Virus record (IMG/VR): IMGVR_UViG_3300030060_003999
Coordinates: 55,560-96,885 of that record
DNA: 41,326 bases
Strand: one strand, 5' to 3'
Source of the DNA: a virus
In this document: piece by piece, positions 3,166 to 38,143 of the stretch
Numbering within the stretch: the stretch's first letter is position 1
Layout of the letters: the number at the start of each line of letters is the position of its first letter
The notes under the pieces: model-generated
What the model was told of the DNA's origin: nothing
Database searches by the model: none
Seen by the model: the letters and a program-made list of their open reading frames with translations, nothing else
Position numbers and translations under genes: made by a program

Positions 3166-3456
3166 TCATTGAATAAGAACCCAGCCCCCATTCCACTCTT
3201 TACCGTTCAAAAACCATAGGAAATTCTTTTGATGAACGGAAACATTAGGCAAACCGTTTAAGCGTTCCTTTGTTGTCGTTGTTTGCCATCCACCGTCGCT
3301 TATGTATAAAGCACCATCAACCGCATATTCAGCAATCATATTACCATGTAGGTATAAACCACATGAATTATGAAATACCTTAACTTCTGTATTTCCTCGC
3401 TTAAAGGTTTGTCTGTTTCTAAAGGCTCTTATTGCGTCTTCTGTAATCTTTCGCAT
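3166..3456 (-). CDS. 96-aa small viral protein of a widespread phage family
   Basis: It begins MRKITEDAIRAFRNRQTFKRGNTEV and contains LYLHGNMIAEYA, then TKERLNGLPNVSVHQ and a Trp-rich end (FLWFLNGKEWNGGWVL). This order (a short N-terminal helix, a small beta domain with LHGN, then the TKERLNGLP motif) is one I remember from many uncharacterised phage proteins of about 90-100 residues. No catalytic role is known to me. There is no ribosome site, and the TATA box lies about 22-26 bases before the ATG, so translation is probably leaderless. Confidence 0.78.
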   Translation of the reverse strand: MRKITEDAIRAFRNRQTFKRGNTEVKVFHNSCGLYLHGNMIAEYAVDGALYISDGGWQTTTTKERLNGLPNVSVHQKNFLWFLNGKEWNGGWVLIQ

Positions 3457-3473
3457 GATAACCGCATAAATCA

Positions 3474-3512
3474 GTATTATATGTCAGGGTAGACCAAAGC
3501 ACTACCATATGG
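3474..3512 (-). promoter_or_regulatory. Promoter with CCATATGG element, copy 5
   Basis: Palindrome at 3505-3512 with CAAAG and CTTTG flanks, then CATATAATAC (3474-3483) as TATA box, about 22 bases before the ATG at 3456. Confidence 0.7.
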
Positions 3513-3521
3513 TTTGACTTT

Positions 3522-3545
3522 GTGTAAACCCCCCGAAAGGGGCGA
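3522..3545 (-). terminator. Hairpin terminator after the 179-aa paralogue gene
   Basis: Minus-strand CCCC-TTTC-GGGG (3531-3542) followed by GGTTTACAC. It sits between the stop at 3569 and the next CCATATGG promoter, the same order as at 2003-2028. Confidence 0.6.
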
Positions 3546-3568
3546 CAAGGGGCGAATTCCTTGCCGAA

Positions 3569-4108
3569 TCACTCTTCTTCCTGCACCTCCGCAGAATCCT
3601 CGCTCTTTGAAGGGCGAGGCGTGATTTGTAGCATACCTTCCGAATCAAGGTCAAATTCCCCTTCATCAGTCAATGCGATACGACCATCTTTCAATGATTG
3701 CATAATGTAGTTATGTGCTTGTTTCTTGTAGTTGGCAATCATTTCATCCACTGATGAATAAACTCCACCAGTTCGCCCGTGAGGGACAATTACGGATAGA
3801 AGGATTGCGTGGTATTCAGTAGGGATTGAAGCATAGGCATCCGCTACCTTTTGTTCCACAGTCGCCAATACAATCTCTTGTGCGTCTGTAAGTGTTGATT
3901 CTCTCCCACGACGAGCCTTCGGAAAATTAGCCATAGTAGAGCCAATAGACCTAATTGCTGTCCAATAAGTGCTTCTTAGTTCATCAGTCGTTGCATTATC
4001 ACCCAATGTTAGGGATAATAGAACGGCTTGTAGATTATCCGATTCGGGTTGGCTTTCAGCCCATGCACGAACCTTGCTTGTGTTCATATTCCAATTCTTA
4101 ATTTTCAT
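3569..4108 (-). CDS. 179-aa protein, member 2 of the three-copy viral paralogous family
   Basis: It matches the gene at 2048-2554 closely: RSTYWTAIRSIGS is identical, FPKARRGREST(L) nearly so, PHGRTGGVYSSVDE is conserved, and the acidic EEE tail is kept. The start is the ATG at 4108, seven bases after GGAGGTAAA; the longer upstream frame begins inside the leader. The leader carries CTTCAAG...CTTGAAG, a 7-bp stem, and its sister's leader has GCTTC...GAAGC in the same place. This suggests shared post-transcriptional control. Function unknown. Confidence 0.85.
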   Translation of the reverse strand: MKIKNWNMNTSKVRAWAESQPESDNLQAVLLSLTLGDNATTDELRSTYWTAIRSIGSTMANFPKARRGRESTLTDAQEIVLATVEQKVADAYASIPTEYHAILLSVIVPHGRTGGVYSSVDEMIANYKKQAHNYIMQSLKDGRIALTDEGEFDLDSEGMLQITPRPSKSEDSAEVQEEE

Positions 4109-4177
4109 GTTTTTTACCTCCAGTTTGGTGTTCTTCAAGTCTTTCGCCCCTTGAAGCACTATTGACGATTATAGGTA

Positions 4178-4215
4178 GTATAAGGTCTTAATTACAAAGT
4201 AATACAACCATATGG
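4178..4215 (-). promoter_or_regulatory. Promoter with CCATATGG element, copy 6
   Basis: CAAAG, ACCATATGGTTGT (palindrome 4208-4215), CTTTG, then CCTTATAC at 4178-4185. The ATG at 4108 is about 70 bases downstream, so this copy has a leader with a ribosome site, as copy 3 does. Confidence 0.75.
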
Positions 4216-4259
4216 TTTGCTTTGTCTTACCCAATGGGTTTTACCCCAAAGGAGAAGAA

Positions 4260-4535
4260 TCACGCCCATTCTTCTTGAAATACCTCCATAAGTGGACTGG
4301 TTGCGTCAAAGAGAGCATCTATGAGTTTATCCTTAAGTGCGCTCATAACTTCAATATCAACCACATTCTTGAATTCTTCAGCAATCAACTCAAATACGAA
4401 CAAATGGAACATACCTTCCTCATCACGCATTTCAAAGGACATATCACGGATAATAGCCTTTTCAAAACCTTCCCTCATGAAATTGTCCATTCCGTCGCTG
4501 ATTGTTGTTAATGCTTGCACACACTTCTTACACAT
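4260..4535 (-). CDS. 91-aa acidic protein of unknown function
   Basis: The protein begins MCKKC, a possible half zinc site, and continues as a mostly helical, acidic protein (DMSFEMRDEEG, then FELIAEEFKNVVDIEV). There is no ribosome site. The TATA box CCCTATATT lies about 23 bases before the ATG, which fits a leaderless messenger. It is a single-gene unit between two CCATATGG promoters. I do not recognise the family; small acidic viral proteins encoded singly like this are often host-directed, but that is speculation. Confidence 0.7.
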   Translation of the reverse strand: MCKKCVQALTTISDGMDNFMREGFEKAIIRDMSFEMRDEEGMFHLFVFELIAEEFKNVVDIEVMSALKDKLIDALFDATSPLMEVFQEEWA

Positions 4536-4554
4536 GATATACGGCTAAATGAGG

Positions 4555-4596
4555 AATATAGGGTTTGATTCCCCAAAGATTCACCAAACCATATGG
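4555..4596 (-). promoter_or_regulatory. Promoter with CCATATGG element, copy 7
   Basis: Palindrome at 4589-4596 between CAAAG and CTTTG, followed by CCCTATATT (4555-4563). The downstream ATG at 4535 is at leaderless distance. Confidence 0.72.
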
Positions 4597-4619
4597 TGTT
4601 GCTTTGCTATAAACCCGTA

Positions 4620-5016
4620 AAGGGGGCACAGGGAAGTATCTATATTGTAATTGAGATTTTTATACATATGTGCCGTTTTACAGCCTCTATCATCGCTTTC
4701 ACATCGCTTAAGGGCATAAATGGAGTAAAGGGTGGGATAGTGGAATGACTACCACTAAGTATGATGCGATTAGGTCGCACTCATGTAGGACGCTTATATT
4801 TATCATATGAGCCATACTGCCTTGTTTATGAAGATGGTTGGAGCCATCCGCCTTTTGAGCCTTAATCACTTTCATAGAGCCAAAACCGCACCCATACGGG
4901 CATAAGCGTTGGATATGTCGCACCACACGAAAACAAGCACATTACCCCCGTCCAAGAGGGTATTCTGTCAATCCCTGTCGGCTCATGACTTCCGACATAT
5001 ACACGGCTATTAAGCC
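4620..5016 (-). other. Promoter-served segment without a clear intact gene
   Basis: A full CCATATGG promoter faces this 400-base stretch, yet no frame gives a convincing protein. Leaderless translation from the ATG at 4998 would give only 18 codons; an overlapping TAATG then opens 26 codons ending at 4862. Further minus-strand pieces look locally coding: MKVIKAQKADG from 4875 to 4708, and a frame ending at about 4632 with MPLSDVKAMIEAVKRH. They lie in different frames. The segment may be a decayed gene, a chain of tiny overlapping genes, or an untranslated RNA. Confidence 0.4.
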
Positions 5017-7039: not shown

Positions 7040-7507
7040 ATGGATAACACACAATGGGATTCACTTTGTATTGAAGTGAACGAATACCTTGAAGCCGACA
7101 CAACTTTGGATGCTGGATTGCGCCAAGTTGTTGAATTGAACCTGCAAATTGGAACAAATAACCCAAATGAGCGAAATGCTGCTGAAGGCGCATTAAAGGC
7201 TCTATTAAAGGGTAGAGATGGAACACCTTTCCGAAGGGGTCAGAAATCTGCTGTTCCTGCAAGCGTTAGAGTAGCAATTGACCGCATTTGCGGTGTTGTT
7301 GAAGAAGCAAGCGTTCAATACTACAACCACGATGCAATTATTGGGGCTATCTCAATGAAGCACATTAAGTCTGGTGGCGGTCAATATGAGGATGCTGATG
7401 ATTATGCTTCAGCAGTCGTTAAAAGAACCCGTAATAACCTAAGTAAGATGTTTAAGGAAGGAAACTGGGATGGTTCAGTTGAAAGCCTTTTACCATCTTC
7501 CGAGTAA
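7040..7507 (+). CDS. 155-aa protein, member 3 of the three-copy viral paralogous family
   Basis: It is more diverged than its two relatives on the other arm but keeps the order of their blocks: GTNNPNER where they have GNNTKDD-like sequence, TPFRRGQKSAVP for FPKARRGRESALP, GGQYEDADDYA for GGAYADVEALA, and KEGNWDGS for KEGRWDGS. GGAG lies 11 bases before the ATG. It is the first gene to the right of the divergence region and is followed by four tandem RNA hairpins. Function unknown; having copies on both sides of a putative origin hints at a regulatory or replication role. Confidence 0.82.
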   Translation: MDNTQWDSLCIEVNEYLEADTTLDAGLRQVVELNLQIGTNNPNERNAAEGALKALLKGRDGTPFRRGQKSAVPASVRVAIDRICGVVEEASVQYYNHDAIIGAISMKHIKSGGGQYEDADDYASAVVKRTRNNLSKMFKEGNWDGSVESLLPSSE

Positions 7508-14456: not shown

Positions 14457-14663
14457 ATGATTAAACTAAGAATTTTAAATGAAACAGGACATACAGACTT
14501 AATGCTTGATGCTTCAGGCATTATTGAGCAAATTGACAACCACCCGACCCATTGGGCTTTTATTGATGGTGAAATGGTTGCTAGAGAAGAAATCGCTAAC
14601 ATTAACTGGGACACGGTGCAATCCGTAGATTTAACCCCTGCAATTGTTGGAGGAAACCTTTGA
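14457..14663 (+). CDS. 68-aa ubiquitin-like (beta-grasp) candidate with a GG-NL tail
   Basis: The predicted layout is beta-beta-alpha-beta-beta: KLRILNETG, HTDLMLDA, helix GIIEQIDNH, AFIDGEMVA, and a last strand VQSVDLTPAIVGG. The PAIVGG ending is like MoaD, ThiS and other ubiquitin-like modifiers, in which the C-terminal GG is adenylated by an E1 enzyme. Here GG is at residues 65-66 with two extra residues (NL), so a protease would have to trim it. The window also encodes an E1-like protein (19869) and a JAMM peptidase (21562). The start is the ATG after GGAAGTGAAAATT. The fold is inferred by eye; chance resemblance is possible. Confidence 0.6.
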   Translation: MIKLRILNETGHTDLMLDASGIIEQIDNHPTHWAFIDGEMVAREEIANINWDTVQSVDLTPAIVGGNL

Positions 14664-14749
14664 GGATAAATAATTCTTAAAGTTCTCTTTTGCCCAAATT
14701 GGGGGAGTCGTTGGTATTTATTTACTGATGGCTTCCCCTTTTTTGGGTG

Positions 14750-15136
14750 ATGCAACCTGATTTACTCAATTTTATTCACGAAAATGCCCTCCAAATCATG
14801 TTAGATTTGAAGGGTTGGAATTACACAAAGAATGCTGTAATTCTAAATGACCTTGCGGTAGTAAAACCCGATTTCTACCCCGACAATTTTATCCTTGCTA
14901 CTGGTCGCAAGGGGTATATTTATGCGCTCGGTGAGAGTCGCATAGAATACGCAGGGAAGACCTATTCATCTACGGATGAATTGCTATCATCCTGCGGAAA
15001 TGAAGCGTTAAAGGACTTCATAAACTGGAAGTTTCTAATGGAAAAAGAGTGGGTGATTACTGATGGTAATAGAAAGTTTATTTGCTCTTTTACTACATTA
15101 GACCAACTTCCCAAAAGAACCAAACATAGGTGTTAA
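14750..15136 (+). CDS. 128-aa protein of unknown function
   Basis: The protein (MQPDLLNFIHENALQIMLDLKGWNY...) mixes helix and strand, with two cysteines in the middle and end (SSCGNE, FICSF). It lies between the Ubl candidate and ribonucleotide reductase, with only a weak GGGTG ribosome site before the ATG and a TATA-like GGTATTTATTTAC at about 14714. No family recognised. Confidence 0.7.
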   Translation: MQPDLLNFIHENALQIMLDLKGWNYTKNAVILNDLAVVKPDFYPDNFILATGRKGYIYALGESRIEYAGKTYSSTDELLSSCGNEALKDFINWKFLMEKEWVITDGNRKFICSFTTLDQLPKRTKHRC

Positions 15137-15138
15137 TT

Positions 15139-17004
15139 ATGGAACAAGCCCCAAATAAAAAAATATTATCCGATATTACTGTGCATATGAAATACGCAAA
15201 GTATAAGCCTGAATTAGAAAGAAGAGAAACATGGGAGGAAATCTGCCAAAGAAATATGGATATGCACATTAAAACATATCCTCAACTTGAATCAGATATT
15301 AAAGATGTTTACAAGCATTTTGTCTTGCCAAAGAAAGTATTGCCGTCTATGCGTTCAATGCAGTTTGGTGGTAAGCCAGTAGAAATTTCTCCTAATAGAG
15401 TTTATAATTGTGCTTATATGCCAATAGATTCACACATAGCATTTAGTGAGGCTATGTTCTTATTACTCGGTGGAACAGGAGTTGGATATTCTGTTCAAAG
15501 ACACCATGTTGAATTAATGAAAGAAATTCAAAAACCAAACCTAAACCGTCAAAGAAGATATTTAGTTAATGATTCTATTGAGGGTTGGGCTGATGCAGTA
15601 AAGGTTCTAATGGAATGTTATACTGGTATTAGAACATCAAGCCCTATATTTGATTATTCAGATATTAGACCTAAAGGAAGTTTATTAAAAACTTCTGGAG
15701 GAAAAGCACCTGGAAGTCAGCCATTAAGAAAGTGTTTAGTTTTAATTGAAAACTTACTACAAAACATTCCTAATGGAACTAAGTTAAGTCCTATTCAAGC
15801 ACATGATATTATGTGCCATATTGCTGATGCAGTATTAAGTGGTGGAATTAGGAGAGCAGCGATGATTAGTTTGTTTTCTGCTGATGACCATGAAATGATT
15901 GCTTGTAAATCTGGTAGTTGGTGGGAAACAAATCCACAAAGAGGTAGAGCAAACAATTCAGCAGTATTACTACGACATAGAGTAACTAAAGAATTCTTTA
16001 TGGATTTGTGGAATAGAATTAAAGCGTCAGGAAGCGGAGAACCTGGAATTTATTTTAATAATGATAAAGACTGGGGAACTAATCCTTGTTGTGAGATTGC
16101 GCTACGACCATATCAATTCTGTAATTTAACAGAAGTTAATGCCTCAGATGTTGTAGACCAAGCAGATTTAGAATCAAGAGTTTCAGCCGCAGCGTTTTTA
16201 GGAACATTACAGGCTGGATATACTGATTTTCATTATTTAAGAGAAGTATGGCGCAAAGCAACAGAAAAAGATGCTTTATTGGGAGTATCTATGACTGGTA
16301 TTGCTTCTAATGTTGTTGAGCATTTAGATTTAGAAATGGCCGCTTATGAAGTAAAGAAAGAAAATGAAAAGGTTGCTAAGATAATTGGTATTAATCCTGC
16401 TCAAAGAACAACCTGCGTTAAACCTGCTGGAACTACAAGTCTTGTTTTAGGAACAAGTAGTGGTATTCATGCTTGGCATAATGATTATTATATTCGTAGG
16501 CTTAGAGTTGGAAAGAATGAAGCGATTTATGGCTACCTTTCAAGAGAACACCCTGAATTAGTTGAAGATGAATTCTTTAACCCAACAGAACAAGCAGTTA
16601 TTAGTATTCCTCAACAAGCACCTAAAGATGCAATTACCCGACACGAATCAGTATTTGATTTATTAGAGCGTGTAAAGAACTTTAGTATTCGTTGGGTAAG
16701 AGCAGGACATAATGATGGATTAAATACCCACAATGTTTCAGCAACTATTTCTATTAAAGACAATGAATGGGAAAGAGTAGCCGATTGGATGTGGTTAAAC
16801 CGACATTATTACAATGGTTTGTCTGTTTTGCCGTATGATGGCGGAACATATACTCAAGCACCATTTGAAGACTGTAATGCTGAAATTTACCATAACTTAA
16901 GTAAATCATTAACAGAAGTTGATTTAACTAAAGTAATTGAAACTCAAGATAATACAGACCTGTCAGGCGAAATAGCCTGTGCAGGAGGACAATGCGAAAT
17001 ATAA
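15139..17004 (+). CDS. nrdJ: Class II (adenosylcobalamin-dependent) ribonucleoside-triphosphate reductase
   Basis: It reduces ribonucleotides to deoxyribonucleotides using coenzyme B12. The sequence follows the monomeric Lactobacillus leichmannii-type enzyme. Active-site cysteines are C91 (VYNCAYMP), the probable thiyl radical C317 (NPCCEI, with E319) and C328 (QFCNLTEVN); the spacing of 11 between the last two equals that of C408 and C419 in the Lactobacillus enzyme. The C-terminal redox pair is C614/C619 (CAGGQC). Other hallmarks are LLGGTGVGYSVQ, GGIRRAAMISLF, GEPGIYFNND and CVKPAGTTSLVLG. The length of 621 is shorter than the bacterial form (about 740). The start is ATG 15139, two bases after the upstream stop. 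It supplies dNTPs for viral DNA. Confidence 0.95.
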   Translation: MEQAPNKKILSDITVHMKYAKYKPELERRETWEEICQRNMDMHIKTYPQLESDIKDVYKHFVLPKKVLPSMRSMQFGGKPVEISPNRVYNCAYMPIDSHIAFSEAMFLLLGGTGVGYSVQRHHVELMKEIQKPNLNRQRRYLVNDSIEGWADAVKVLMECYTGIRTSSPIFDYSDIRPKGSLLKTSGGKAPGSQPLRKCLVLIENLLQNIPNGTKLSPIQAHDIMCHIADAVLSGGIRRAAMISLFSADDHEMIACKSGSWWETNPQRGRANNSAVLLRHRVTKEFFMDLWNRIKASGSGEPGIYFNNDKDWGTNPCCEIALRPYQFCNLTEVNASDVVDQADLESRVSAAAFLGTLQAGYTDFHYLREVWRKATEKDALLGVSMTGIASNVVEHLDLEMAAYEVKKENEKVAKIIGINPAQRTTCVKPAGTTSLVLGTSSGIHAWHNDYYIRRLRVGKNEAIYGYLSREHPELVEDEFFNPTEQAVISIPQQAPKDAITRHESVFDLLERVKNFSIRWVRAGHNDGLNTHNVSATISIKDNEWERVADWMWLNRHYYNGLSVLPYDGGTYTQAPFEDCNAEIYHNLSKSLTEVDLTKVIETQDNTDLSGEIACAGGQCEI

Positions 17005-17016
17005 GGAAGTGAACAA

Positions 17017-17391
17017 ATGAGAAACCTCTTCAAAAGTTATGAAGAGTGTGAATCAGTAATAATAAAAATGTGTAAGGGACTCTCCGATGAGTCTATAAAT
17101 AAGATAAGATTAGCAATAAATGTCTGCGAGTCATTAATGTATGACAAGGACAAAATATTTAGATTAACACAAACATACATACAACAATTATGGGATATAC
17201 CTGAAGCCGTTAATACTGGCTTTCATAAATATTTTAGACAGGAAGCAATCAAACAAAAGAAACTATTGCAGTATCATAAGAAACATTGTCCAAAAACATA
17301 CGAATGTAAGGTCTGTGAAACAATGAATATAAATATAAATAAATTGAGGAATGCCAATGAAAGAAAAAGACCCAAATTATGTATCAAATAA
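17017..17391 (+). CDS. 124-aa helical protein with a C-terminal Cys/His cluster
   Basis: The N-terminal two thirds are helical and Lys-rich. Near the C-terminus HCPKTYECKVC could bind zinc. GGAAGTGAACAA precedes the ATG, 12 bases after the RNR stop. Its end overlaps the next small gene by 35 bases. Function unknown. Confidence 0.72.
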   Translation: MRNLFKSYEECESVIIKMCKGLSDESINKIRLAINVCESLMYDKDKIFRLTQTYIQQLWDIPEAVNTGFHKYFRQEAIKQKKLLQYHKKHCPKTYECKVCETMNININKLRNANERKRPKLCIK

Positions 17392-17518
17392 AAGAAAAAA
17401 CTCAAAAATCGCTACTCGTTGTAGAGTATGCGGTGAACCTCTCTTGATTGCTCAAGAGATTAAGCGTGAGATTCACGAATCTTGCGATAAAGATAATAGC
17501 AATATGTATATGATGTGA
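17357..17518 (+). CDS. 53-aa zinc-motif protein
   Basis: RCRVCGEPLL (C22, C25) followed by H40 and C43 gives a CxxC...HxxC arrangement. TTGAGGAATGCC stands before the ATG, which lies inside the end of the previous gene in another frame. The next gene starts five bases after its stop. Confidence 0.65.
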   Translation: MKEKDPNYVSNKRKNSKIATRCRVCGEPLLIAQEIKREIHESCDKDNSNMYMM

Positions 17519-17522
17519 TATT

Positions 17523-18698
17523 ATGGCAACAATAAGAATATCAAAACCCGATGATAGTAATGAAACCTATCAAACAGAAATTACCTGTGAAACATTTAGA
17601 TTCATGGATAATCATGTTTCTTATGATAGAAGCGCACTTGACCCGCTACAATCAGGATTAGAAAAATATTGGAGAAGTATTCTTTCTCCTAAGAATCGTA
17701 GGTATCACACAAGAAACTTTGGCTTTGGAAGAACTTTTAGTCATTTAGTTATGATTAATGGTTGTCCTGTTCTATTGGCGAGGGAAGGCATTAGATACGA
17801 AGTAAATGGTAAATCATACAATTTAGCGAATGTTGCATCTGCTTTAGCAAGATTAACTTTTAAATCTTGTTTTGAAAATGAACCTTCTAAGTTATTGTCT
17901 GCTCTTTACTCAACTTTGTCTTTACCAGAAAATGTAAAGTATTGTTTAGAGAATAAAGCCCCTTATCATTGGTATGAACTAATGGAGAGCGACGACCCAA
18001 TTAAAGTTCGTCTTAATTGTCAGCAAATTGGCGACAATGAAATCGCTATGGAAGTAAGTGATGGCGTTTGGGGAACAATTACAGTAAAACAATTAGATGT
18101 ATTCTGTAATTATTATAAGAACGATAAAAATAGAGGAAGTTGGGTTGATACTTCTCCCGAACAATTATACGAAAGAACGGTTGGAAAAGAACCAACAGAA
18201 TCACAAGTAGAAGTAATGAAAGCATTTCTAAAACAGAACAGAACATCTGATTTAGTTGAGCGTAGGGCTATTCAATTAGTTAATGAGTTGCTTGAACAAT
18301 ATCCCGACAGACTAAGTGCTGAATGGGATGGAGAAGTATTAGATAACATCATAGTCAAAGGAAAAGATTATGATTGGAAACTATCTAATAATAAATACAA
18401 GTCCGATATTCAAATGGTTTCAACTTATGTTTGGCAACCAACTAAAGAAAAGAAAGCAGTTGGTGTAGATGAAGAAGATAATACTATTTATGAAACTATT
18501 TTCTCAGAACCAACTTGGCAAGGGCCGATTTGTATAGATAATATGGCTAAAGGTTCTTCTTTGGGCGACCAATTCGCAGCAAGAGCATTAGCCTTGTTAA
18601 ATGACAGATTTACTATTACTATTGTTAATACAATTAAGCGATATTTACTCGCTAATCCTAATGAATATAGAGTTGATGAAAATGAAAATATGCGATGA
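17523..18698 (+). CDS. 391-aa protein of unknown function in the Ubl/E1/JAMM neighbourhood
   Basis: I do not recognise this protein. It is a globular mixture with notable stretches HTRNFGFGRTFSHLVMINGCPVLLAREG, IRYEVNGKSYNLANVASALARL and, near the C-terminus, GPICIDNMAKGSSLGDQFAARALALL. It lacks P-loop, zinc or membrane signatures. Its C-terminal codons overlap the start of the TFB gene. It lies between RNR and TFB, within the region that also carries the E1-like and JAMM genes, so it might be a partner of that system or an unrelated replication-region gene. Confidence 0.82.
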   Translation: MATIRISKPDDSNETYQTEITCETFRFMDNHVSYDRSALDPLQSGLEKYWRSILSPKNRRYHTRNFGFGRTFSHLVMINGCPVLLAREGIRYEVNGKSYNLANVASALARLTFKSCFENEPSKLLSALYSTLSLPENVKYCLENKAPYHWYELMESDDPIKVRLNCQQIGDNEIAMEVSDGVWGTITVKQLDVFCNYYKNDKNRGSWVDTSPEQLYERTVGKEPTESQVEVMKAFLKQNRTSDLVERRAIQLVNELLEQYPDRLSAEWDGEVLDNIIVKGKDYDWKLSNNKYKSDIQMVSTYVWQPTKEKKAVGVDEEDNTIYETIFSEPTWQGPICIDNMAKGSSLGDQFAARALALLNDRFTITIVNTIKRYLLANPNEYRVDENENMR

Positions 18699-19527
18699 AT
18701 GCGGAAGCACAGAAACAGAATATAATGAACAATTGGGCGAAACCTGTTGCGTTGTATGTGGCTTAGTTATAGTCACGGAAATGTTTGAGGAAACAGTTCG
18801 TATTGTTGAAAATGGAGTAAATGTTGCTTCATCAGATAATGGGCGTTTAGGTTCAGTTATTACTGGACAAGGCTCATATAAATTCAATCGTTGGGGAAAA
18901 GATAGTGTCTTTCCTAAGAAAGTAATTGAAGGTTTTTATCATTGTAATATGGTATTAAGTAATGTTGCTCCTCAAATGAAACTAAAAGCAAGAGTAGAAG
19001 AATTGTATCTTCTTTTCTTAAACAAAGGTTTGTTTGGAAGAACAACTTACGAAGCAAGAGGAACTGCTGTTGTTTATTACGCATTACTTGAAAATGGAAC
19101 TCAACACTCAATTAAAGAAGTGAGTGAAGAATTTCCTGATTCAATGAAAAGTGCTAAGAAACTAATTAGAAAGATTAAACAATTTTCGGGAACAAAGAAA
19201 CTTCCTTACAATCCAAGATATAGATTGTTAAGAACAGTTGCTAAAGTTTCTCCTGATGATTTAGCCTTTAGAAGAGAAGCAGAAAATACTCTTGAGTATT
19301 TTGAATCAGTCATTAATAAGACTGGTGATTTTACAAAGTCGCCCAGTTATTATGAAGCAATTTGTTGGATTACTGTAAATAAAATGGTTCATCCAACTCT
19401 TCAAAGACAAATTATATCTGAAAAGACAGGTGTAAGCGAAAAGACAATTTACTTAGAAACTAAGAAACTATTAGGTTTAATTGGTTATAAAGTAGCCCAA
19501 GATGTAAAGGGCAAACAATTATGGTGA
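18682..19527 (+). CDS. tfb: Transcription initiation factor B (TFB)
   Basis: The archaeal counterpart of TFIIB, which joins TBP at the TATA box and recruits RNA polymerase. The N-terminal zinc ribbon is CDEC-x15-CVVC (C4, C7, C23, C26). Two cyclin-like repeats follow, with YEARGTAVVYYALLENG in the first and YYEAICWITVNKM and ISEKTGVSEKTIY in the second; the last resembles the BRE-recognition helix region. At 281 residues it is near the usual 300. The start (ATG 18682; ATG 18676 is possible) overlaps the upstream gene. A viral TFB could redirect the host polymerase to viral promoters. The B-finger is poorly conserved. Confidence 0.9.
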   Translation: MKICDECGSTETEYNEQLGETCCVVCGLVIVTEMFEETVRIVENGVNVASSDNGRLGSVITGQGSYKFNRWGKDSVFPKKVIEGFYHCNMVLSNVAPQMKLKARVEELYLLFLNKGLFGRTTYEARGTAVVYYALLENGTQHSIKEVSEEFPDSMKSAKKLIRKIKQFSGTKKLPYNPRYRLLRTVAKVSPDDLAFRREAENTLEYFESVINKTGDFTKSPSYYEAICWITVNKMVHPTLQRQIISEKTGVSEKTIYLETKKLLGLIGYKVAQDVKGKQLW

Positions 19528-19531
19528 TAAT

Positions 19532-19855
19532 ATGTTTGAAAAAGAATGGAATAAAATAGCAAAAGAAGTATATAAGAATGCAGTTAATCATGGATTCTGG
19601 AAAGAAGAAGTAAATGATGGAGAAAGAATGGCTTTAATTCATGCCGAGATTAGCGAAGCATTAGAAGCATTAAGAGAGGGTAATCCCTCATCAAATAAGA
19701 TTATGGAATTTACTAATCTTGAAGAAGAATTAGCAGATGCGGTAATTCGTATAATGGATTACGCATTTGGTAAGGATTTAGATATAGCGGGTGCGATTCT
19801 CGCTAAGTTAGAATATAACAAAAGCCGTGAGTTTATGCATGGTAAATCGTTTTAA
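19532..19855 (+). CDS. MazG-like nucleotide pyrophosphohydrolase
   Basis: MazG-type proteins hydrolyse (d)NTPs to monophosphates and pyrophosphate. The fold's metal-binding signatures are visible: HAEISEALEALREG, and after a loop LEEELADAVIRIMDYA (the ExxD pair). The length of 107 is typical for single-domain MazG relatives of viruses. The gene starts four bases after TFB. A role in nucleotide-pool control or in lowering alarmone-like signals fits viral examples. Confidence 0.82.
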   Translation: MFEKEWNKIAKEVYKNAVNHGFWKEEVNDGERMALIHAEISEALEALREGNPSSNKIMEFTNLEEELADAVIRIMDYAFGKDLDIAGAILAKLEYNKSREFMHGKSF

Positions 19856-19868
19856 GGAGAGAATAAAT

Positions 19869-20426
19869 ATGAGAAAAATATTAATTATTGGAGCAGGTGG
19901 AATTGGGTCATTTTTGATTCAGTTCTTAAATAAAGTTGAATTATATGATATTACGGTGGCTGACCCTGATACGGTAGAAACAAAGAATCTACCCTATCAA
20001 AACTTCAAGAGTGGAGATGTTTCTATAAATAAAGCAGTAGTTATGTTTGGGCGTTTTGATTCTGTCAAAAAATGCTCGGAATATCCTATTCTAACTGAAA
20101 AACAAATGAAAGGATATGATTTGATTATCTGTTGTGTGGATAACCTTTCAGTAAGGAGAACCTTATACAACACAAGTCTTAAATGGCTTGACCTAAGAGC
20201 GCAAGGTAGAAACTGTGCGCTTGTGAGTCATAAAGCCGACCCTAAAATGTATGATATGCTTTTAGCAGGTGAAGAAGGCTCATTTAGTTGTCAAGGAGAT
20301 TCATGGGATGGAACAAATACAGGTGTTCAATTCATGCAAATAGCAATTGCAGGAATAGGCGCACAATGGATTCAAAGATATTTCAATGATGAACAAGTAA
20401 AAGAATATATGGTGCTAAATGCATGA
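19869..20426 (+). CDS. E1/ThiF/MoeB-like activating enzyme
   Basis: A Rossmann-type adenylating domain that activates the C-terminus of a ubiquitin-like or sulfur-carrier protein. Visible features: GAGGIGS (residues 8-14), D32 in VADPDTVE, NLPYQNF (40-46), K55, and CCVDN with D91. The usual NLxRQ arginine is replaced by Tyr43. C141 in SFSCQGD is a candidate catalytic cysteine; no paired CxxC zinc motif is seen. The length of 185 is short for ThiF (about 250). The start is the ATG after AAGGAGAGAATAAAT. With the JAMM gene (21562) and the GG-tailed candidate (14457) it suggests a conjugation or thiolation system. Confidence 0.85.
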   Translation: MRKILIIGAGGIGSFLIQFLNKVELYDITVADPDTVETKNLPYQNFKSGDVSINKAVVMFGRFDSVKKCSEYPILTEKQMKGYDLIICCVDNLSVRRTLYNTSLKWLDLRAQGRNCALVSHKADPKMYDMLLAGEEGSFSCQGDSWDGTNTGVQFMQIAIAGIGAQWIQRYFNDEQVKEYMVLNA

Positions 20427-20456
20427 AAACAAAAAAAAACAATGGAAGTGAAAATT

Positions 20457-21560
20457 ATGAATAATAGATGGACAAAAGAACAAGAAGCATACCTCTTAAT
20501 TAAAAGGGAAGAAAGGATTCCCTATCAAACAATTAGTGAGTTAATGGAAACAAAGTTTGGTATTAAGCGTAGTGCTAACACTATTGCTGCTAAATACGGA
20601 AGCCTTACAAAAGGAGATAAGAAACAAACACGAAAGCCTATCAGTTGGAATGAACGGAAGGTTGATTTCGTTTATAGTTGTCTTTGGAATGGTTTGACTT
20701 TGGATAGAATCAAAGAGGCTTTTGAGGCCGAATTTGATTATAAGTTGAGCAACACACAATTGAAGAATTGTTTGGCAAAGAAGAAGCCTTCGGGTAAAAT
20801 TCAAGCATTGGCTGAAAAGATGCTAAATCCTGAAAAGCCAACCTTTAATCCTCTAAAGGAAGCAAAGAAGGTTGAAGAAGTTGAAGAAGAGAATTGGCGC
20901 ATTGAGCCAGCAACTCGCAAACAACTTCGTTATCTTGCTTCATTGATGAATCCTGATACATACGGAAAAGATTTGTCAAAAATGGCTAAAGGAATGCAGG
21001 GTAATTTTACTAAGGGTGAAGCCTGTGATAAAATTGATGAATTGCTTTCAATCAACGATACAATCATTGAAGAAGAAATTGCTGAAGAAAGACCACGAAA
21101 CATTAGGCCGTTGGTATCTGAGCAACCAACAGATATTGAAGTATTTGTTGAGAAGCATGGTAATCCAAAAACCCGTCATCTTTCAAAGAACGAAAAGAAA
21201 ATGCTACTTGAGTTGAATGAACAAATTAAGAGTCTTGATGAACAAATTCAACCAATTGAATTTACAAGAGAACAAGATATGTATTTGCTTATTAACTGGC
21301 ATACAATGTCAATTGATGAAGCAAGAGAATACTTTGAAATGCCTTATTATCTACTCGCAAAGCGTTTAGAATTGGTGATTGATAGCACAGAACCTTATCA
21401 TATTGACTTACTTATGGAGGCCGCTAAAGCGATTTCAGCCCGTAAGGAACAAGAGGATGCAATCAAGAATATGGGCTACTGGAAGCGCAGGAAACTGCGA
21501 AAACAGGAGAAGAAAGTGGCTAAGTTGGAGAAGAAACTCAAGCGAATGAGAGGTGAATAA
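20457..21560 (+). CDS. 367-aa protein with SANT/Myb-like helix-turn-helix regions
   Basis: The N-terminus, RWTKEQEAYLLIKREERI followed by MIET-type helices and SANTIAAKYGSL, resembles a SANT/Myb-like or sigma-type HTH. A related pattern recurs at FTREQDMYLLINWHTMSIDEA. In the middle, TRKQLRYLASLMNPDTYG matches the C-terminal domain of the 434-aa coiled-coil protein. The C-terminus is Lys/Arg-rich. A DNA-binding role is likely; the target is unknown. The ATG follows GGAAGTGAAAATT, the same leader string as at 14444-14456. It separates the E1-like and JAMM genes. Confidence 0.75.
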   Translation: MNNRWTKEQEAYLLIKREERIPYQTISELMETKFGIKRSANTIAAKYGSLTKGDKKQTRKPISWNERKVDFVYSCLWNGLTLDRIKEAFEAEFDYKLSNTQLKNCLAKKKPSGKIQALAEKMLNPEKPTFNPLKEAKKVEEVEEENWRIEPATRKQLRYLASLMNPDTYGKDLSKMAKGMQGNFTKGEACDKIDELLSINDTIIEEEIAEERPRNIRPLVSEQPTDIEVFVEKHGNPKTRHLSKNEKKMLLELNEQIKSLDEQIQPIEFTREQDMYLLINWHTMSIDEAREYFEMPYYLLAKRLELVIDSTEPYHIDLLMEAAKAISARKEQEDAIKNMGYWKRRKLRKQEKKVAKLEKKLKRMRGE

Positions 21561-21561
21561 A

Positions 21562-22191
21562 ATGGGTAAAAATTGGTCGGCTGATGAATGCACTAAATGT
21601 GGTAATTTGATTTATTATGGAGGAAAAAATCCTTGTTGTGATGAACCTTCTGAAGAAGAAATGCTCCATCATCTTGAAGAATTAGACCGAAAGCGGGAAA
21701 GGGCTGAATTGTATATATTAAATGCATACAATGAAATATTGGAACAACAACTTTCTTCTTGTGCAGGTTCAAAAGAAAATTTAATTGATGTGGCTATGCA
21801 TGATTTAGATTTTCATGCTGCTATTTGGGAGGCTTCAACAGAAATACTACCTGCTTTAGAAGTTCAAGTCGTTATTGATGGTAAGAACAATTGTTTCGTA
21901 ACAACTGGTTCTTCAGGTTATGTTGAATTTGGAATGAAACCTCCTGTTGGTATGACTTTACCGATTAGATGCTGGATTCATACTCATCCATTTGGTTCTG
22001 CCTATTTTAGCGGAACAGACATTAGAACTGTTTCTATTTGGGAAACAAATATGGAATGTGCTTATGTTCTTGGTGGAGAAGGTCATTACGGTTATTGGAA
22101 TCAAACAAATCCAAAACAACTTGAAATTTACAGAAACAAAGATGATGTTGAAAGAATTCAAACTTGGAAAAAGGGAGATGAAGAAGAATGA
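21562..22191 (+). CDS. JAB/MPN+ (JAMM) metallopeptidase
   Basis: The JAMM zinc-protease motif H-x-H-x7-S-x2-D is complete: H140, H142, S150 and D153 in WIHTHPFGSAYFSGTD. Such enzymes cleave after the C-terminal GG of ubiquitin-like proteins or remove them from targets; in tailed phages a JAB domain also occurs in tail-assembly proteins. The N-terminal 30 residues carry a separate Cys cluster (ECTKCGN, NPCC) that may be a zinc ribbon. The start is ATG 21562, two bases after the upstream stop. The E1-like gene lies one gene upstream, which favours a ubiquitin-like pathway over tail assembly. Confidence 0.9.
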   Translation: MGKNWSADECTKCGNLIYYGGKNPCCDEPSEEEMLHHLEELDRKRERAELYILNAYNEILEQQLSSCAGSKENLIDVAMHDLDFHAAIWEASTEILPALEVQVVIDGKNNCFVTTGSSGYVEFGMKPPVGMTLPIRCWIHTHPFGSAYFSGTDIRTVSIWETNMECAYVLGGEGHYGYWNQTNPKQLEIYRNKDDVERIQTWKKGDEEE

Positions 22192-22463
22192 GAAATAAAA
22201 GAAAATACGGAGAAACAGATTTTGCACAGGAGATTAAGCCACGAATGACTTTGTTAGAAAGAACAAAGGCTCATCAATTGCGTCATCCTAATGATAAAAA
22301 CGAAAAGAGAACAGACAAGGGAATTACTTGGTCTAAAAAGACTGAAAAGGATAAAGTCCTTGATGAGTTTCATAAGACCCATATTTACACTTATGTAGAT
22401 GTAAATATGAATAAAGGTTGGGTTCGTGTAGCAACAAATGATGAAGTAGGTGAAGAAGAATGA
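22188..22463 (+). CDS. 91-aa basic protein of unknown function
   Basis: MRNKRKYGETDFAQEIKPRM... is basic at the N-terminus and ends acidic (GEEE). Its start overlaps the JAMM stop (ATGA). The codons for its GEEE end double as the ribosome site of the next gene. No family recognised. Confidence 0.72.
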   Translation: MRNKRKYGETDFAQEIKPRMTLLERTKAHQLRHPNDKNEKRTDKGITWSKKTEKDKVLDEFHKTHIYTYVDVNMNKGWVRVATNDEVGEEE

Positions 22464-22822
22464 GTTGGGAATACCGAGAAATTATTAATTGGTTGAAAGA
22501 ATTTCACCCTGATATTTATGAGAAGTGGTATATTCATACTAAGCCTAAAAGAGATAGAGAAGAAGCAAAATTGAATGCAAAGATTAGTGAAGTTCAAAAT
22601 TGGCTTGATGATTTAAAAGACCATCCTCGCTGGAAAACACAGGAAGAATGGCGAAAAGCGATTCAACTTTGCATTGATGAAATTAATAGTAATGATGATT
22701 ATGATACAAGACAAAATTACTGGAATGGTATTAAGGCTTTAGCGGGTCGTCATCCTGAATTCCCCACAAGAAGGGCTGTATTCAATAATACTCATTGGCA
22801 AGAAAGGAGTGAAGAAGAATGA
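22460..22822 (+). CDS. 120-aa Trp-rich protein of unknown function
   Basis: Eight or so tryptophans (MSWEYREIINWLKEF, QNWLDDLKDHPRWKTQEEW) and a helical layout. Overlaps both neighbours by four bases and ends in EEE. No motif identifies a function. Confidence 0.72.
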   Translation: MSWEYREIINWLKEFHPDIYEKWYIHTKPKRDREEAKLNAKISEVQNWLDDLKDHPRWKTQEEWRKAIQLCIDEINSNDDYDTRQNYWNGIKALAGRHPEFPTRRAVFNNTHWQERSEEE

Positions 22823-22968
22823 ATGCAGAATATGACAAAATAGTTGCAGAATATGACAAAATAGTAGCATTACTTATTGAAAACCATTTTGTTGAGACTA
22901 GTCCTTATGAGACTATCAAGCACTTGATTGAAACACATCAAGATTACAAAGAAGGTGAAGAAGAATGA
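22819..22968 (+). CDS. 49-aa small protein with an internal repeat
   Basis: AEYDKIV is repeated twice in tandem at the N-terminus, followed by an acidic helix and the GEEE tail. ATGA overlaps occur at both ends, and the GGTGAAGAAGA that encodes its tail is also the ribosome site of the GroES-like gene. Confidence 0.62.
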   Translation: MNAEYDKIVAEYDKIVALLIENHFVETSPYETIKHLIETHQDYKEGEEE

Positions 22969-23183
22969 AAGCAGTTGGTGAATATGCAATTGTTGTAATT
23001 GAGAATACAACGAATAGTTCTGGTATTCAAATTAAAAACGATGGAGAAGGCACTTGTATTTCTTGTCCTAAATATCCTGAGATAGAAGGAAAGTCAATTG
23101 TTTTTGATACAAACCAAACTTATGCAGAAGTATCTGGATATATGATTATGCATAGTAGTTTTATTATGGCGGTGATTGAATGA
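22965..23183 (+). CDS. Short GroES-like co-chaperonin
   Basis: At 72 residues it is shorter than GroES (about 97), but it has the same order of beta strands: GEYAIVVIEN, a short SGIQI segment where the mobile loop usually lies, GEGTCISCP, EIEGKSIVFDT, and the end SFIMAVIE, comparable to the ILAIVEA of GroES. It overlaps the downstream group I chaperonin gene by four bases, the arrangement of groES-groEL. It would form the lid of the viral chaperonin chamber. The reduced roof region recalls phage co-chaperonins such as T4 gp31 in principle only. Confidence 0.7.
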   Translation: MKAVGEYAIVVIENTTNSSGIQIKNDGEGTCISCPKYPEIEGKSIVFDTNQTYAEVSGYMIMHSSFIMAVIE

Positions 23184-24691
23184 TTATACAAGGAAAAGAA
23201 GTTAAGCAAAAACTATTACAGGGAATTGATTTAGTTGCTAATACAGTTAAACCAACTTTAGGGCCACAAGCAAAAACAGTTATTTTGCAGAATAACCCTC
23301 CAGTAATTATTAATGACGGAGTAACTATTACAAAGTATATTTCTCATGAAGACCCTTATATTCAAATGGGAATTCAAATGGTTCAAAACTTAGCAAGCCA
23401 AGCACAAGATAAATCGGGAGATGGAACTACTACTGCTTGTATTCTTGCACAGGCTATTTGTCGTGCATTAATAACATTTGATAATGAATCAACCCACACT
23501 ATGAATCAAACTCTTAATGGTCTAAAAGAAATGGTTCTTAATAATTTAGAAAAAAGAACAATTGAAATTGAAGATGGAGATATTCTTAATGTGGCTACTG
23601 TTGCTGCAAATAATGATGCTGAATTAGGAATGCTAATTCAAAAAGCATTAGATGTAGTTGGTAGAGATGGAATTGTAACTGTTGAGGAATCTAATAACTA
23701 TAATACTGAAATGATTCATAGAGAAGGAATGGAAATCCCTGAAGGATATATCAGTCATTTGATGTGTAATAAAGAAGGAGGAACAGTTGAGTTTGATAAT
23801 CCACTTATCTTTATGTCTAATATTCCTTTCAGGGCATTTAAGGATATACTACCCATGCTTGAGTATTCTTCTTCACAGGGAAGACCTCTATTGATTCTTT
23901 GTAAAGGTATGGAGTCTAATGCTCTAAATAATCTTGTAATGAATCTAATTAACAAGACTGTTGAATGTGCGGTAATTCTTGCACCAAACTTCGGTGATGC
24001 TCAAATTGATGAATTAGGCGACCTTCAATCTTTGTTAGGTGGTAAAGTATTTAATCACGAAAGTAAAGATGATGCTACAAGTATTGTGGCAGGAGATTTT
24101 GGAACTTGTTCAAAAGTTGTAATTACAAAGGAAAAAACAACATTTGTTGGCGGTGAAGGAAATACTGATGCTAGAATTAAAACTCTTAAAGAAGTGGCTG
24201 AAACCATGAAAGGATATGATTTGGGAAGAATAAAGTCCCGTATTTCAAGACTTAAAGGCGGAGTAGCGACAATTAAGGTTGGTGCTTCTTCTTCTATGGA
24301 AATGAGAGAAACTAAAGAAAGACTTGATGATGCTTTAAATGCTACAAAAGCAGCATTAGAATCAGGTATTGTTCTTGGTGGTGGAATGACTTTATTTGAT
24401 ATTGCTAATGATGAAAACATACCTGCATGGTTTGGTAATGCTTTAATCAAACCCTTTGAGGTATTGAAAGAAAATGGAGGCTTTAAGCAAGATTCTTTGA
24501 ACAAAAAGATTAAGTCCTTGAGAAAGGATAATCCAAACATGGGGTATAATGCATTGACTAATCATTATGGTGATTTAAGCGAAGCAGGAGTATATGACCC
24601 AGTTAAAGTAACTGCAAATAGTTTCTTAGCCGCTATGTCTATTTCTCAGTTGTTTTATTCAACAGAAGTTGCAGTATTAGTGGAGGAATGA
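23180..24691 (+). CDS. groL: Group I (GroEL-type) chaperonin
   Basis: An ATP-dependent protein-folding chamber subunit. It follows bacterial GroEL rather than the archaeal thermosome: LVANTVKPTLGPQAK, NDGVTITKYI, SGDGTTTACILAQAI, VGRDGIVTVEES, the apical PLLILCKGMESNALNNLV and APNFGDAQIDELGDLQ, then RLKGGVATIKVGA and VLGGGMTLF. The length of 503 compares with about 548 for GroEL; there is no Gly/Met tail. It overlaps the GroES-like gene upstream. Group I chaperonins are bacterial, but some archaea have acquired them. The viral version may fold capsid or replication proteins. Confidence 0.93.
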   Translation: MIIQGKEVKQKLLQGIDLVANTVKPTLGPQAKTVILQNNPPVIINDGVTITKYISHEDPYIQMGIQMVQNLASQAQDKSGDGTTTACILAQAICRALITFDNESTHTMNQTLNGLKEMVLNNLEKRTIEIEDGDILNVATVAANNDAELGMLIQKALDVVGRDGIVTVEESNNYNTEMIHREGMEIPEGYISHLMCNKEGGTVEFDNPLIFMSNIPFRAFKDILPMLEYSSSQGRPLLILCKGMESNALNNLVMNLINKTVECAVILAPNFGDAQIDELGDLQSLLGGKVFNHESKDDATSIVAGDFGTCSKVVITKEKTTFVGGEGNTDARIKTLKEVAETMKGYDLGRIKSRISRLKGGVATIKVGASSSMEMRETKERLDDALNATKAALESGIVLGGGMTLFDIANDENIPAWFGNALIKPFEVLKENGGFKQDSLNKKIKSLRKDNPNMGYNALTNHYGDLSEAGVYDPVKVTANSFLAAMSISQLFYSTEVAVLVEE

Positions 24692-35691: not shown

Positions 35692-37320
35692 ATGATAATT
35701 AACAAGATGAAAGATGGTAAAACTATTTACAAATCATGGAGAGAAAACAATGAAAAGAAATTTGAATTGGTTGAGTTTCAACCGTATTTCTATGTGGATG
35801 AAGAATCCCATGAACCGCCAGCGTATAATGCTTCTAAATATATTACTAGAGAGTTTAGTTATGTTCGTGGTGATTGGGTTAATCTTATTAAAAATCCTCT
35901 AAAGAAGGTTCTTGTTGATTCAGCAAATGATATTAGAGAAGCAAAGAAGATATTCGGCAAAACCTATGAAGCAGATGTTCCTTTACACTTTAGATACTGT
36001 GTAGATGAATTAGATGAAATGCCTGAATATAATATGCGTAAATGGTATTGGGATATGGAATGGCAACAAGGCGGAGAATATCACGACCAATTGACTACAA
36101 TTGTTGTTTATGATAACTATGATAAAGAATACTATCAATGGGCGTGGTTTCCTGATTATGAAGGAGATGAAGAATATCGTTTTGATAATGAAAAAGATAT
36201 GATAGAGTCTTTTATGACTACAATGATTGTAAAAGACCCAGATATGTTAATTGCTTGGTTTGGTAATTTTGCTGATATTCCTAAACTTTTAGAAAGAGCG
36301 TGTGCAGTAGGTTTGAATCCCTGCGTTATGTCACCTATTGGTTATGTTAAAGGTATTAAAAAGACAAAGGAAGGATTTTCTTTTGCTTATGCGGAGAATG
36401 GATTTAATCCTATTGAACAACCTATTGGTGGGCGAATTACTCTTTCTTTAGACCTTGCATTTGAAAGACAATGGAATGACTCTCAAAGAGGAACATTACC
36501 ATCAATGGCTTTAGATTACATAGGTGAAATGGTTCTCGGTAAAAAGAAATTAGTGTCGGAAAAGTTTCCTGATACAAATGAATTTTATCGTCGTGCTTGG
36601 TTAGAAGATACAGAAACTTATCTTGAGTATGCTCTAAAAGATGTTGAATTGATTGTTGAAATAGATGAAACAAACTTTTGTAGTGAGGCTATTCTTTCTT
36701 TACAAAGATTACTAAAAGCACCATTTGATGCTTGTTTTTATGCAAGTCATATGGGTTCTATTTACTTTATGCGTAATGCTGAGTGGAAAGCACCAACAGG
36801 AAGTAAAGTAGATAAAAGAGAAGAATATGAAGGTGCTATGATTTATGACCCATTAAGTGAAGGAACAAATGGATTACATCTTAATGTTGCTGCTTTTGAT
36901 TTTGCAGGTCTATATCCTAGTATGATGATTGCTCGTAATATCAGTTGGGAAACAATTAGTGAAGAACCAACAGAATTTGCGGTAAATATTCTAACACCGA
37001 GAGATTTCAGCGAAACTACTAGACAACATATGTTATATTTTAAAACGGATGAACTGGGTTTATTGCCAAGAGCAGTATTGGAACTCAAGGAGTTGCGAAA
37101 CGAATATAAGCGACTTATGAGAGATGCAAGAGGAACGGGCGAATATGCAAAGTGGTATAACAATCAAATGGCAGTAAAGCGATTAATGGCTTCTTTTTAT
37201 GGTATTGTTGCTTTTCAAGGATTTGGTTGGGCTAATGTCAATTTAGCCGCATCAATTACTGCAAGTGCAAGAGAAGCAATTAGATTAGCAGCATTTAAGG
37301 CAAAGGAGATGGAAGTATGA
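35692..37320 (+). CDS. polB: Family B DNA polymerase, N-terminal part (exonuclease, motifs A and B)
   Basis: It carries the 3'-5' exonuclease and most of the polymerase domain. Exo I is WDME (D121, E123), Exo II resembles AWFGNFADIP, Exo III YALKDVEL. Polymerase motif A is FDFAGLYPSMM (D403) and motif B KRLMASFYG (K496 to G504), with Ala where Asn is usual. The frame then ends after EAIRLAAFKAKEMEV. Motif C is absent and is found instead at the start of a separate gene at 38144. The two pieces together (542 + 297 residues) make a normal-sized enzyme, and no intein sequence is present. Confidence 0.93.
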   Translation: MIINKMKDGKTIYKSWRENNEKKFELVEFQPYFYVDEESHEPPAYNASKYITREFSYVRGDWVNLIKNPLKKVLVDSANDIREAKKIFGKTYEADVPLHFRYCVDELDEMPEYNMRKWYWDMEWQQGGEYHDQLTTIVVYDNYDKEYYQWAWFPDYEGDEEYRFDNEKDMIESFMTTMIVKDPDMLIAWFGNFADIPKLLERACAVGLNPCVMSPIGYVKGIKKTKEGFSFAYAENGFNPIEQPIGGRITLSLDLAFERQWNDSQRGTLPSMALDYIGEMVLGKKKLVSEKFPDTNEFYRRAWLEDTETYLEYALKDVELIVEIDETNFCSEAILSLQRLLKAPFDACFYASHMGSIYFMRNAEWKAPTGSKVDKREEYEGAMIYDPLSEGTNGLHLNVAAFDFAGLYPSMMIARNISWETISEEPTEFAVNILTPRDFSETTRQHMLYFKTDELGLLPRAVLELKELRNEYKRLMRDARGTGEYAKWYNNQMAVKRLMASFYGIVAFQGFGWANVNLAASITASAREAIRLAAFKAKEMEV

Positions 37321-37941: not shown

Positions 37942-38138
37942 AAGAAGAAATTAAAGAATTAAAAAGAGAAATTAAAGCACTTAAGCAAAGAATTAGCGGT
38001 TTGGAAAAAGACTTAGATTATCAAGTTGAGCAGAATAGCACCAATGGTAAAATGTCAAATGATATAAGAGATTTACAACAAGCAGTTGCCGATTTAGCAA
38101 AAGAACCAGTTGGAATGATGTTTGATTACCGAGCGTGA
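37938..38138 (+). CDS. 66-aa coiled-coil protein between the polymerase halves
   Basis: IKELKREIKALKQRISGLEKDL is a clear heptad coiled coil, followed by a second helix, IRDLQQAVADLAKE. It ends five bases before the ATG of the polymerase C-terminal part. It may be an oligomerisation module; whether it bridges the two polymerase parts is unknown. Confidence 0.68.
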   Translation: MKEEIKELKREIKALKQRISGLEKDLDYQVEQNSTNGKMSNDIRDLQQAVADLAKEPVGMMFDYRA

Positions 38139-38143
38139 ATAAT

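Follow-up and report, generated by a model that had tools for sequence, protein, structure and literature searches.

Genes for a candidate reversible ubiquitin-like protein-modification system in a virus with the Magrovirales gene set, and its homologues in Poseidoniales

The viral gene cluster

The stretch of DNA described here (the window, 41,326 nucleotides) comprises bases 55,560-96,885 of the 96,885-base virus record IMGVR_UViG_3300030060_003999 and contains the genes of a candidate ubiquitin-like protein-modification system. An earlier note on this DNA had pointed to a small ubiquitin-like protein (Ubl), an E1/ThiF-like adenylating enzyme, and a JAMM metalloprotease within one region, and all three are found there, together with an ICI-domain protein which is a candidate for an E2-like transfer enzyme (Table 1). 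It is considered probable that these genes give the virus a reversible ubiquitin-like protein-modification system of its own, which is related to one of its host lineage and lies outside the known families with which it was compared.

Table 1. Genes of the cluster, with positions in the window
Feature	Position	Strand	Remarks
Ubl, 68 amino acids, beta-grasp	14457..14663	+	C-terminus ..VDLTPAIVGG-NL; GG 14649-14654, variable two-residue tail 14655-14660
E1/ThiF-like adenylating enzyme, 185 amino acids	19869..20426	+	Candidate catalytic Cys141 (20289-20291) in invariant SCQ; Tyr43 (19995-19997) replaces the usual Arg
JAMM metalloprotease, 209 amino acids	21562..22191	+	Glu100 (21859-21861) and H140xH142..S150xxD153 (21979-22020) invariant
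ICI-domain protein, 391 amino acids, candidate E2-like transfer enzyme	17523..18698	+	Invariant Cys337 (18531-18533) in W-x-GPICIDN; fold unproven
Small Zn-knuckle-like protein	17357..17518	+	CxxC...HxxC invariant; in nearly all homologous clusters
TFB-like protein	18682..19527	+	N-terminal TFIIB-type Zn ribbon; conserved in viral cluster, TFB also in two host clusters
Small GroES-like reading frame (assigned solely from its size and place, without Pfam match) and GroEL (Cpn60 3.8e-44)	22965..24691	+	

The reading frame of the Ubl is present as the earlier note had described it, with PAIVGG and two further residues (NL) at the C-terminus, and its Met1 is conserved across the family. All 66 distinct Ubls collected from IMG/VR relatives show VGG followed by 0, 1, or 2 residues at the C-terminus. 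Both glycines are invariant in the 64 distinct Ubls which could be aligned, 13 of which stop at GG while the others carry SL, NL, NY, SC, HY, QE, Y, Q, and further tails, and few columns vary more than the two of the tail, whose entropies are 3.0 and 2.4 bits. The glycines were not selected for, because the search peptides contained VDLTPAIV without GG. The proposed beta-grasp fold is borne out by an AlphaFold2 model with a predicted local distance difference test score (pLDDT) of 90.7, which shows the order strand-strand-helix-strand-strand-helix-strand with a disordered tail, and which found ubiquitin, SUMO, ISG15, MoaD, and ThiS as best PDB matches in a Foldseek search (probability up to 0.97). 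A profile of the virus and host Ubls compared with PDB sequences retrieved mostly ubiquitin and polyubiquitin chains, with ubiquitin first (best E 0.013). No credible family for the Ubl was obtained from Pfam, NCBIfam, PHROGs, or PADLOC.

The adenylating enzyme matches ThiF (PF00899) with E=1.6e-15, above the cut-off, and its PDB matches are UBA5, Cap2, Uba1, and MoeB. In 90 distinct E1s the motifs of the ATP site vary little or not at all, GxGGI, DxD, KN, Q44, K55, and DN being invariant. The replacement of the arginine of the NLxRQ motif by tyrosine 43, to which attention had been drawn before, is real and family-wide, as tyrosine is found in 90/90 distinct E1s of viruses and phages; the host homologues mostly have NLxHQ at this position. 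Cysteine 141 in the SCQ motif is the only cysteine which is invariant in the viral and the distant phage E1s, and those host sequences that were inspected have it as well.

The JAMM protease has the complete motif H140-x-H142-x7-S150-x2-D153 that had been reported for it, and the residues E100, H140, H142, S150, and D153 are invariant in 88/88 distinct JAMM proteins; its match to Pfam Prok-JAB (E=2.7e-4) lies below the family cut-off. The earlier note had assigned to it the removal of the NL tail behind the glycines. Trimming stays in the cycle proposed below but is not the sole task, since the protease is retained in all 18 loci where the Ubl already ends in GG and offers nothing to trim, and the idea of an enzyme dedicated to trimming was rejected on this ground. 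The protease therefore probably also removes the tag, so that deconjugation and not only trimming would be under selection.

Conservation in viruses, archaea, and phages

Scans of IMG/VR yielded 79 E1 loci, 14 JAMM loci, and 80 Ubl loci, many of which lie on shared contigs and are not all independent. When at least 9 kb of sequence downstream of the Ubl was required and E1 and JAMM were recognised by the motif patterns KN-x2-YQ..SCQ and HxHP..S..D, respectively, 75 of 75 distinct loci contained all three genes, with E1 and JAMM downstream of the Ubl. Together with the invariant glycines, this goes beyond chance. In 51 E1 loci the upstream sequence reached 7 kb or more, and a tblastn match to the Ubl was obtained in all of them but four distant phage-type loci, which carry a divergent Ubl. 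Relatives which keep E1 and JAMM thus also keep the GG-ended gene, and together with the beta-grasp model this co-occurrence upholds the central claim of the earlier note, a virus-borne set of Ubl, E1, and JAMM. The gene order kept in the relatives is Ubl, the 55 amino acid CxxC..HxxC protein, the 391 amino acid protein, TFB, E1, JAMM, and GroEL, whereas ribonucleotide reductase, MazG, and others are variable. The Ubl module is near-universal in the virus group as sampled.

The window further encodes a split family-B DNA polymerase (PolB), the small subunit of RFC (RFC-S), an ATP-dependent ligase, a UvrD-type helicase, GroEL, and a TFB-like Zn-ribbon protein, and a PCNA-like reading frame was recognised by inspection of its sequence only, without Pfam match. 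The two polymerase genes occupy 35692-37320 and 38135-39037 and are separated by a gap of about 0.8 kb; the profile of Aoguangviridae from the International Committee on Taxonomy of Viruses (ICTV) likewise gives a split into PolB-NTD and PolB-CTD (PMC10768690). The same profile lists for this family of the order Magrovirales the set of TFB, RFC-S, PCNA, split PolB, and GroEL at about 90-110 kb, links it to marine archaea, and names viruses of Poseidoniales as the nearest (PMC10768690). The virus record matches this list, and so has the gene set of Magrovirales, an assignment by gene content; Poseidoniales are the presumed host order, as taken from the Magrovirales literature (PMC10768690). Two magrovirus-type contigs (L184, L185) were found inside a metagenome-assembled genome (MAG) of the bacterium Maricaulis, probably by contamination of the bin.

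When genomes were scanned with the E1 alignment, about 20 contigs were obtained, nearly all from MAGs of Poseidoniales/marine Euryarchaeota and mostly with E1 directly followed by a homologous JAMM. Two of these clusters (L202, L206) also contain one or more Ubls, two or three ICI proteins, and TFB. Between the TFB and ICI genes of L206, at 3339-4820, lies a gene for an AAA+ ATPase, which might serve to unfold proteins that carry the tag. The viral and host Ubls are homologous (probability 99.0%, E 2.7e-18, 66/68 columns), and the viral ICI profile matched one host ICI reading frame with 3.9e-6 and others with 1.5e-3 to 3e-2, all ranked above those of the phages. In 146 Poseidoniales genomes the profiles of E1, Ubl, and ICI were each found in 68; 56 genomes have the three together and 71 have not one of them. 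The pairwise co-occurrence gives Fisher p-values of at most 6.4e-25, which overstate the significance because the genomes share descent and hence are not independent, MAG completeness being unstated.

Thirty Ubl loci were fetched from these genomes. About half of their Ubl reading frames consist of 2, 3, or 4 head-to-tail units (L311, L312, L318-L322, L324, and others), where each unit ends with GG and a short linker and the last one with a short tail, for example RAC or NHC. Three Ubl-Ubl-E1 fusions (L299, L301, L313), one Ubl-ICI fusion (L309), and E1-JAMM fusions (L282, L289, L300) were found in addition, and therefore the four components are tied together independently of viral synteny. 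The precursors of 2-4 units and the Ubl-E1 fusions resemble eukaryotic polyubiquitin genes. These precursors also bear on the question whether the Ubl might be a sulfur carrier, its C-terminus receiving a thiocarboxylate for tRNA thiolation or cofactor synthesis as in MoaD, ThiS, TtuB, and CysO, and the JAMM trimming its precursor. The E1 is of the ThiF/MoeB type, MoaD and ThiS are among the structural matches, and JAMM-processed sulfur carriers are known, but the host poly-Ubls look like precursors of a modifier, the constant partner is a cysteine-bearing ICI protein, the JAMM is kept where the Ubl has no tail, and neither a rhodanese nor ATP_bind_3 (TtuA/TilS-type) was found in the virus record, which may be incomplete and could be complemented by the host. 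A sulfur-carrier role is less likely because of the missing rhodanese and ATP_bind_3 and because of the host poly-Ubl precursors, and we regard it as unlikely.

The existence of a homologous host system also allows one to imagine that this system is antiviral, and that the viral Ubl, E1, and JAMM are decoys or deconjugating antagonists instead of a complete writer. The bacterial Ubl-like system CBASS Cap2 indeed acts in anti-phage defence (PMC10097602). In the host contigs examined, however, the neighbours read from the reading frames are ordinary metabolic genes (L187, a 168-kb contig) and a TYW1-like radical-SAM gene (L193, L197), thus metabolism and tRNA modification and not defence, and the virus has retained the whole set, the catalytic-type residues of E1, ICI, and JAMM being intact, which is more than a decoy would require. 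Such a mimic appears rather improbable to us.

Outside the archaea, an independent compact operon coding for a 700 amino acid ICI protein, Ubl, JAMM, and E1 is present in a few bacterial-type phages which carry a sigma factor and PolA (L078, L181, L182); the large protein ends with YPSGRYICIVDK..ND and the Ubl with ALVGG. Comparison by hhalign relates the viral to the phage Ubl with a probability of 96% and E 2.9e-9, the alignment running through the GG, while the viral ICI protein and the large phage protein are colinear but align weakly (probability 1.7, E 0.03). In Methanosarcinales (L199:5764-8582) a 741 amino acid ICI-type protein (YCCIVD) is encoded directly upstream of an E1 of the same family, and no JAMM was seen nearby. 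In crAss-like phages (L175:1976-5654 and L176:2358-5654) there is a cassette of a protein of about 434 amino acids, a JAMM-type protein (HSH..FSGTD), and a ThiF-like E1. In a tree of E1 sequences the magroviral, the host, and the phage plus methanogen enzymes form separate groups, apart from the MoeB-type and crAss-like E1s, and it is uncertain how the three branch relative to one another (host with phage plus methanogen, 91/58). A recent capture of the viral E1 from the host was considered and found unsupported, the two being separate groups of one family; because of this separation and the uncertain branching order, the viral copy cannot be presented as a recent acquisition.

The ICI-domain protein and the neighbouring genes

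The earlier note had recognised neither an E2 nor an E3. The second part of this statement stands, and for the first a candidate can now be named in the ICI-domain protein. It has 25 invariant columns including cysteine 337 in W-x-GPICIDN...GDQ...R..AL.ND, this cysteine is invariant in 42 sequences, and it is kept in the aligned host, phage, and methanogen sequences, which had been chosen by the same motif. The structural model reached a pLDDT of 85 and a predicted template modelling score (pTM) of 0.48. No credible family was obtained for the protein from Pfam, NCBIfam, PHROGs, or PADLOC. An attempt to identify it as an E2 by sequence was given up, as the ICI profile gave only spurious PDB matches (N-acetylneuraminate lyase); because of this, and because the Foldseek matches are not significant, the protein stays an E2 candidate. 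It may represent a novel type of enzyme for Ubl transfer.

The Zn-knuckle-like protein, for which PADLOC gave no family, is a possible adaptor. Inside the cluster of the window lie also a B12-type ribonucleotide reductase (15130-17004) and a MazG-like gene (19532-19855), which are absent or placed elsewhere in other contigs. The GroES-like reading frame and GroEL are conserved beside the JAMM gene and are not claimed as members of the pathway. Elsewhere in the window, paralogous small proteins (2048-2569, 3569-4159, 7040-7507, and perhaps 22460-22822) share a motif like STYWTAIRSIGS..FPKARRGRES.

The closeness of GroEL would fit a function of Ubl and JAMM in the assembly of tail or capsid, as has been suggested for lambda TAPI/TAPK. 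Lambdoid tail clusters are known to contain Ubl and JAB genes (PMC1779556), and one host poly-Ubl weakly matches Lambda_tail_I of Pfam. The lambda set has no E1, however, the viral cluster sits among genes of replication and transcription and not among tail genes, and the same set occurs on host chromosomes, so that a role in virion assembly is regarded as improbable.

Known systems, proposed cycle, and significance

Operons of Ubl, E1, E2, and JAB, including the PolyUbl operons, are already known from bacteria (PMC1779556; reviewed in PMC11354881). They share with the set described here the Ubl, E1, JAMM, and an E2-like candidate, and with Poseidoniales also tandem Ubls and JAB-E1 fusions. 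They differ in that the viral Ubl and ICI proteins have no Pfam match and the carriers are archaeal viruses and archaea; the E2-like domain of PolyUbl has moreover been described as inactive, whereas the ICI cysteine is conserved. The ubiquitin operon of Caldiarchaeum subterraneum codes for CsUb, E1, E2, E3, and Rpn11 (PMC6043591). It resembles the viral set in an archaeal Ubl precursor with residues behind the GG, in the E1, and in a JAMM which cuts after GG and deconjugates, but it has a tail of nine residues, an E2, and a RING E3, where the virus has 0-2 residues, ICI instead of a recognisable E2, and no RING that could be found. Haloferax SAMP/UbaA/HvJAMM1 (PMC4443979) likewise combines an archaeal beta-grasp modifier, an E1-like enzyme, and a JAMM, yet the viral E1 scored 29.5 bits with the UbaA model, which has a cut-off of 450 bits, no sulfurtransferase was found, and ICI is an extra partner. 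An E1-type adenylation domain and a JAMM-type protease acting on the C-terminal glycine are shared with Bil and CBASS Cap2/Cap3; the viral E1, however, is a short stand-alone adenylation domain and is carried by a virus instead of a defence locus, and of the PADLOC models only the E1 half of E1-E2 fusions was matched, with no match for Ubl, ICI, or JAMM. Lambda TAPI/TAPK also pairs a phage Ubl with a JAB protease, but its genes lie in tail operons and include no E1. Mobile elements also combine ThiF with JAMM, in PRTRC cassettes and in the crAss-like cassette, but the viral E1 gave 42.4 bits against the PRTRC_ThiF cut-off of 144.75 bits, and no GG-ended Ubl was seen among the neighbouring annotated proteins of two crAss-like loci which were translated. 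A filing under PRTRC, SAMP, Bil, or CBASS was therefore dropped, cut-offs or models not being reached. Where the earlier note had named Bil, CBASS, and SAMP as related systems, the closest relatives are instead found in the Ubl system of the presumed host order Poseidoniales.

Several observations weigh against a reversible modification system. The Foldseek values of the Ubl model are modest (E about 1e-2, template modelling score about 0.5). The ICI protein has no Pfam match, no UQ_con domain occurs in the virus record, and the ICI model has no significant fold match in PDB, Ubc13 ranking first with E 0.34. No E3 was identified and no RING found, and in one divergent phage (L183) the large protein, E1, and a Ubl with LGG at its C-terminus are present, but no JAMM lies nearby.

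For a reversible modification system, the first step of the cycle which we infer would be the removal by the JAMM of the 0-2 residues behind GG, if there are any. The E1 would then adenylate the exposed glycine 66 of the Ubl and hold the Ubl as a thioester on cysteine 141, and the thioester would pass to cysteine 337 of the E2-like ICI-domain protein. In the course of infection the Ubl would finally be attached to amino groups on proteins of the virus or the host, from which the JAMM could take it off again. As a divergent version of the same system exists in the presumed host, it is likely that the viral copy acts in competition with the host tag, circumvents it, or diverts it, or else serves to tag proteins of the virus.

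No such system was found described in magroviruses or Poseidoniales in the literature searched, where a magrovirus survey and two ICTV profiles are silent and key magrovirus papers lie outside the search. Unusual features are its location in a virus, its near-universality in the sampled virus group, and the polyubiquitin-like relatives in the host. Having their own kit next to a related host kit, magroviruses, which are abundant in the ocean, probably tag proteins during infection. A wider and more tentative proposal, which we take seriously without giving it the same weight, is that Poseidoniales, which are among the most abundant archaea of the surface ocean, might run a complete Ubl signalling with polyubiquitin-style precursors and a new cysteine-dependent class of conjugating enzymes (ICI), and that their lytic viruses might have a mono-Ubl version of their own, present in almost all of them as part of the core genes, with which they control host or viral proteins in infection. 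If true, prokaryotes would be the setting of a ubiquitin system encoded by viruses.

What is known of Ubl tagging in prokaryotes comes mostly from sulfur carriers, from bacterial defence against phages, and from a few archaea. As a large group of marine viruses of archaea conserves such a set of its own, and the presumed host has homologues of it, virus-directed protein tagging in archaea would become testable.

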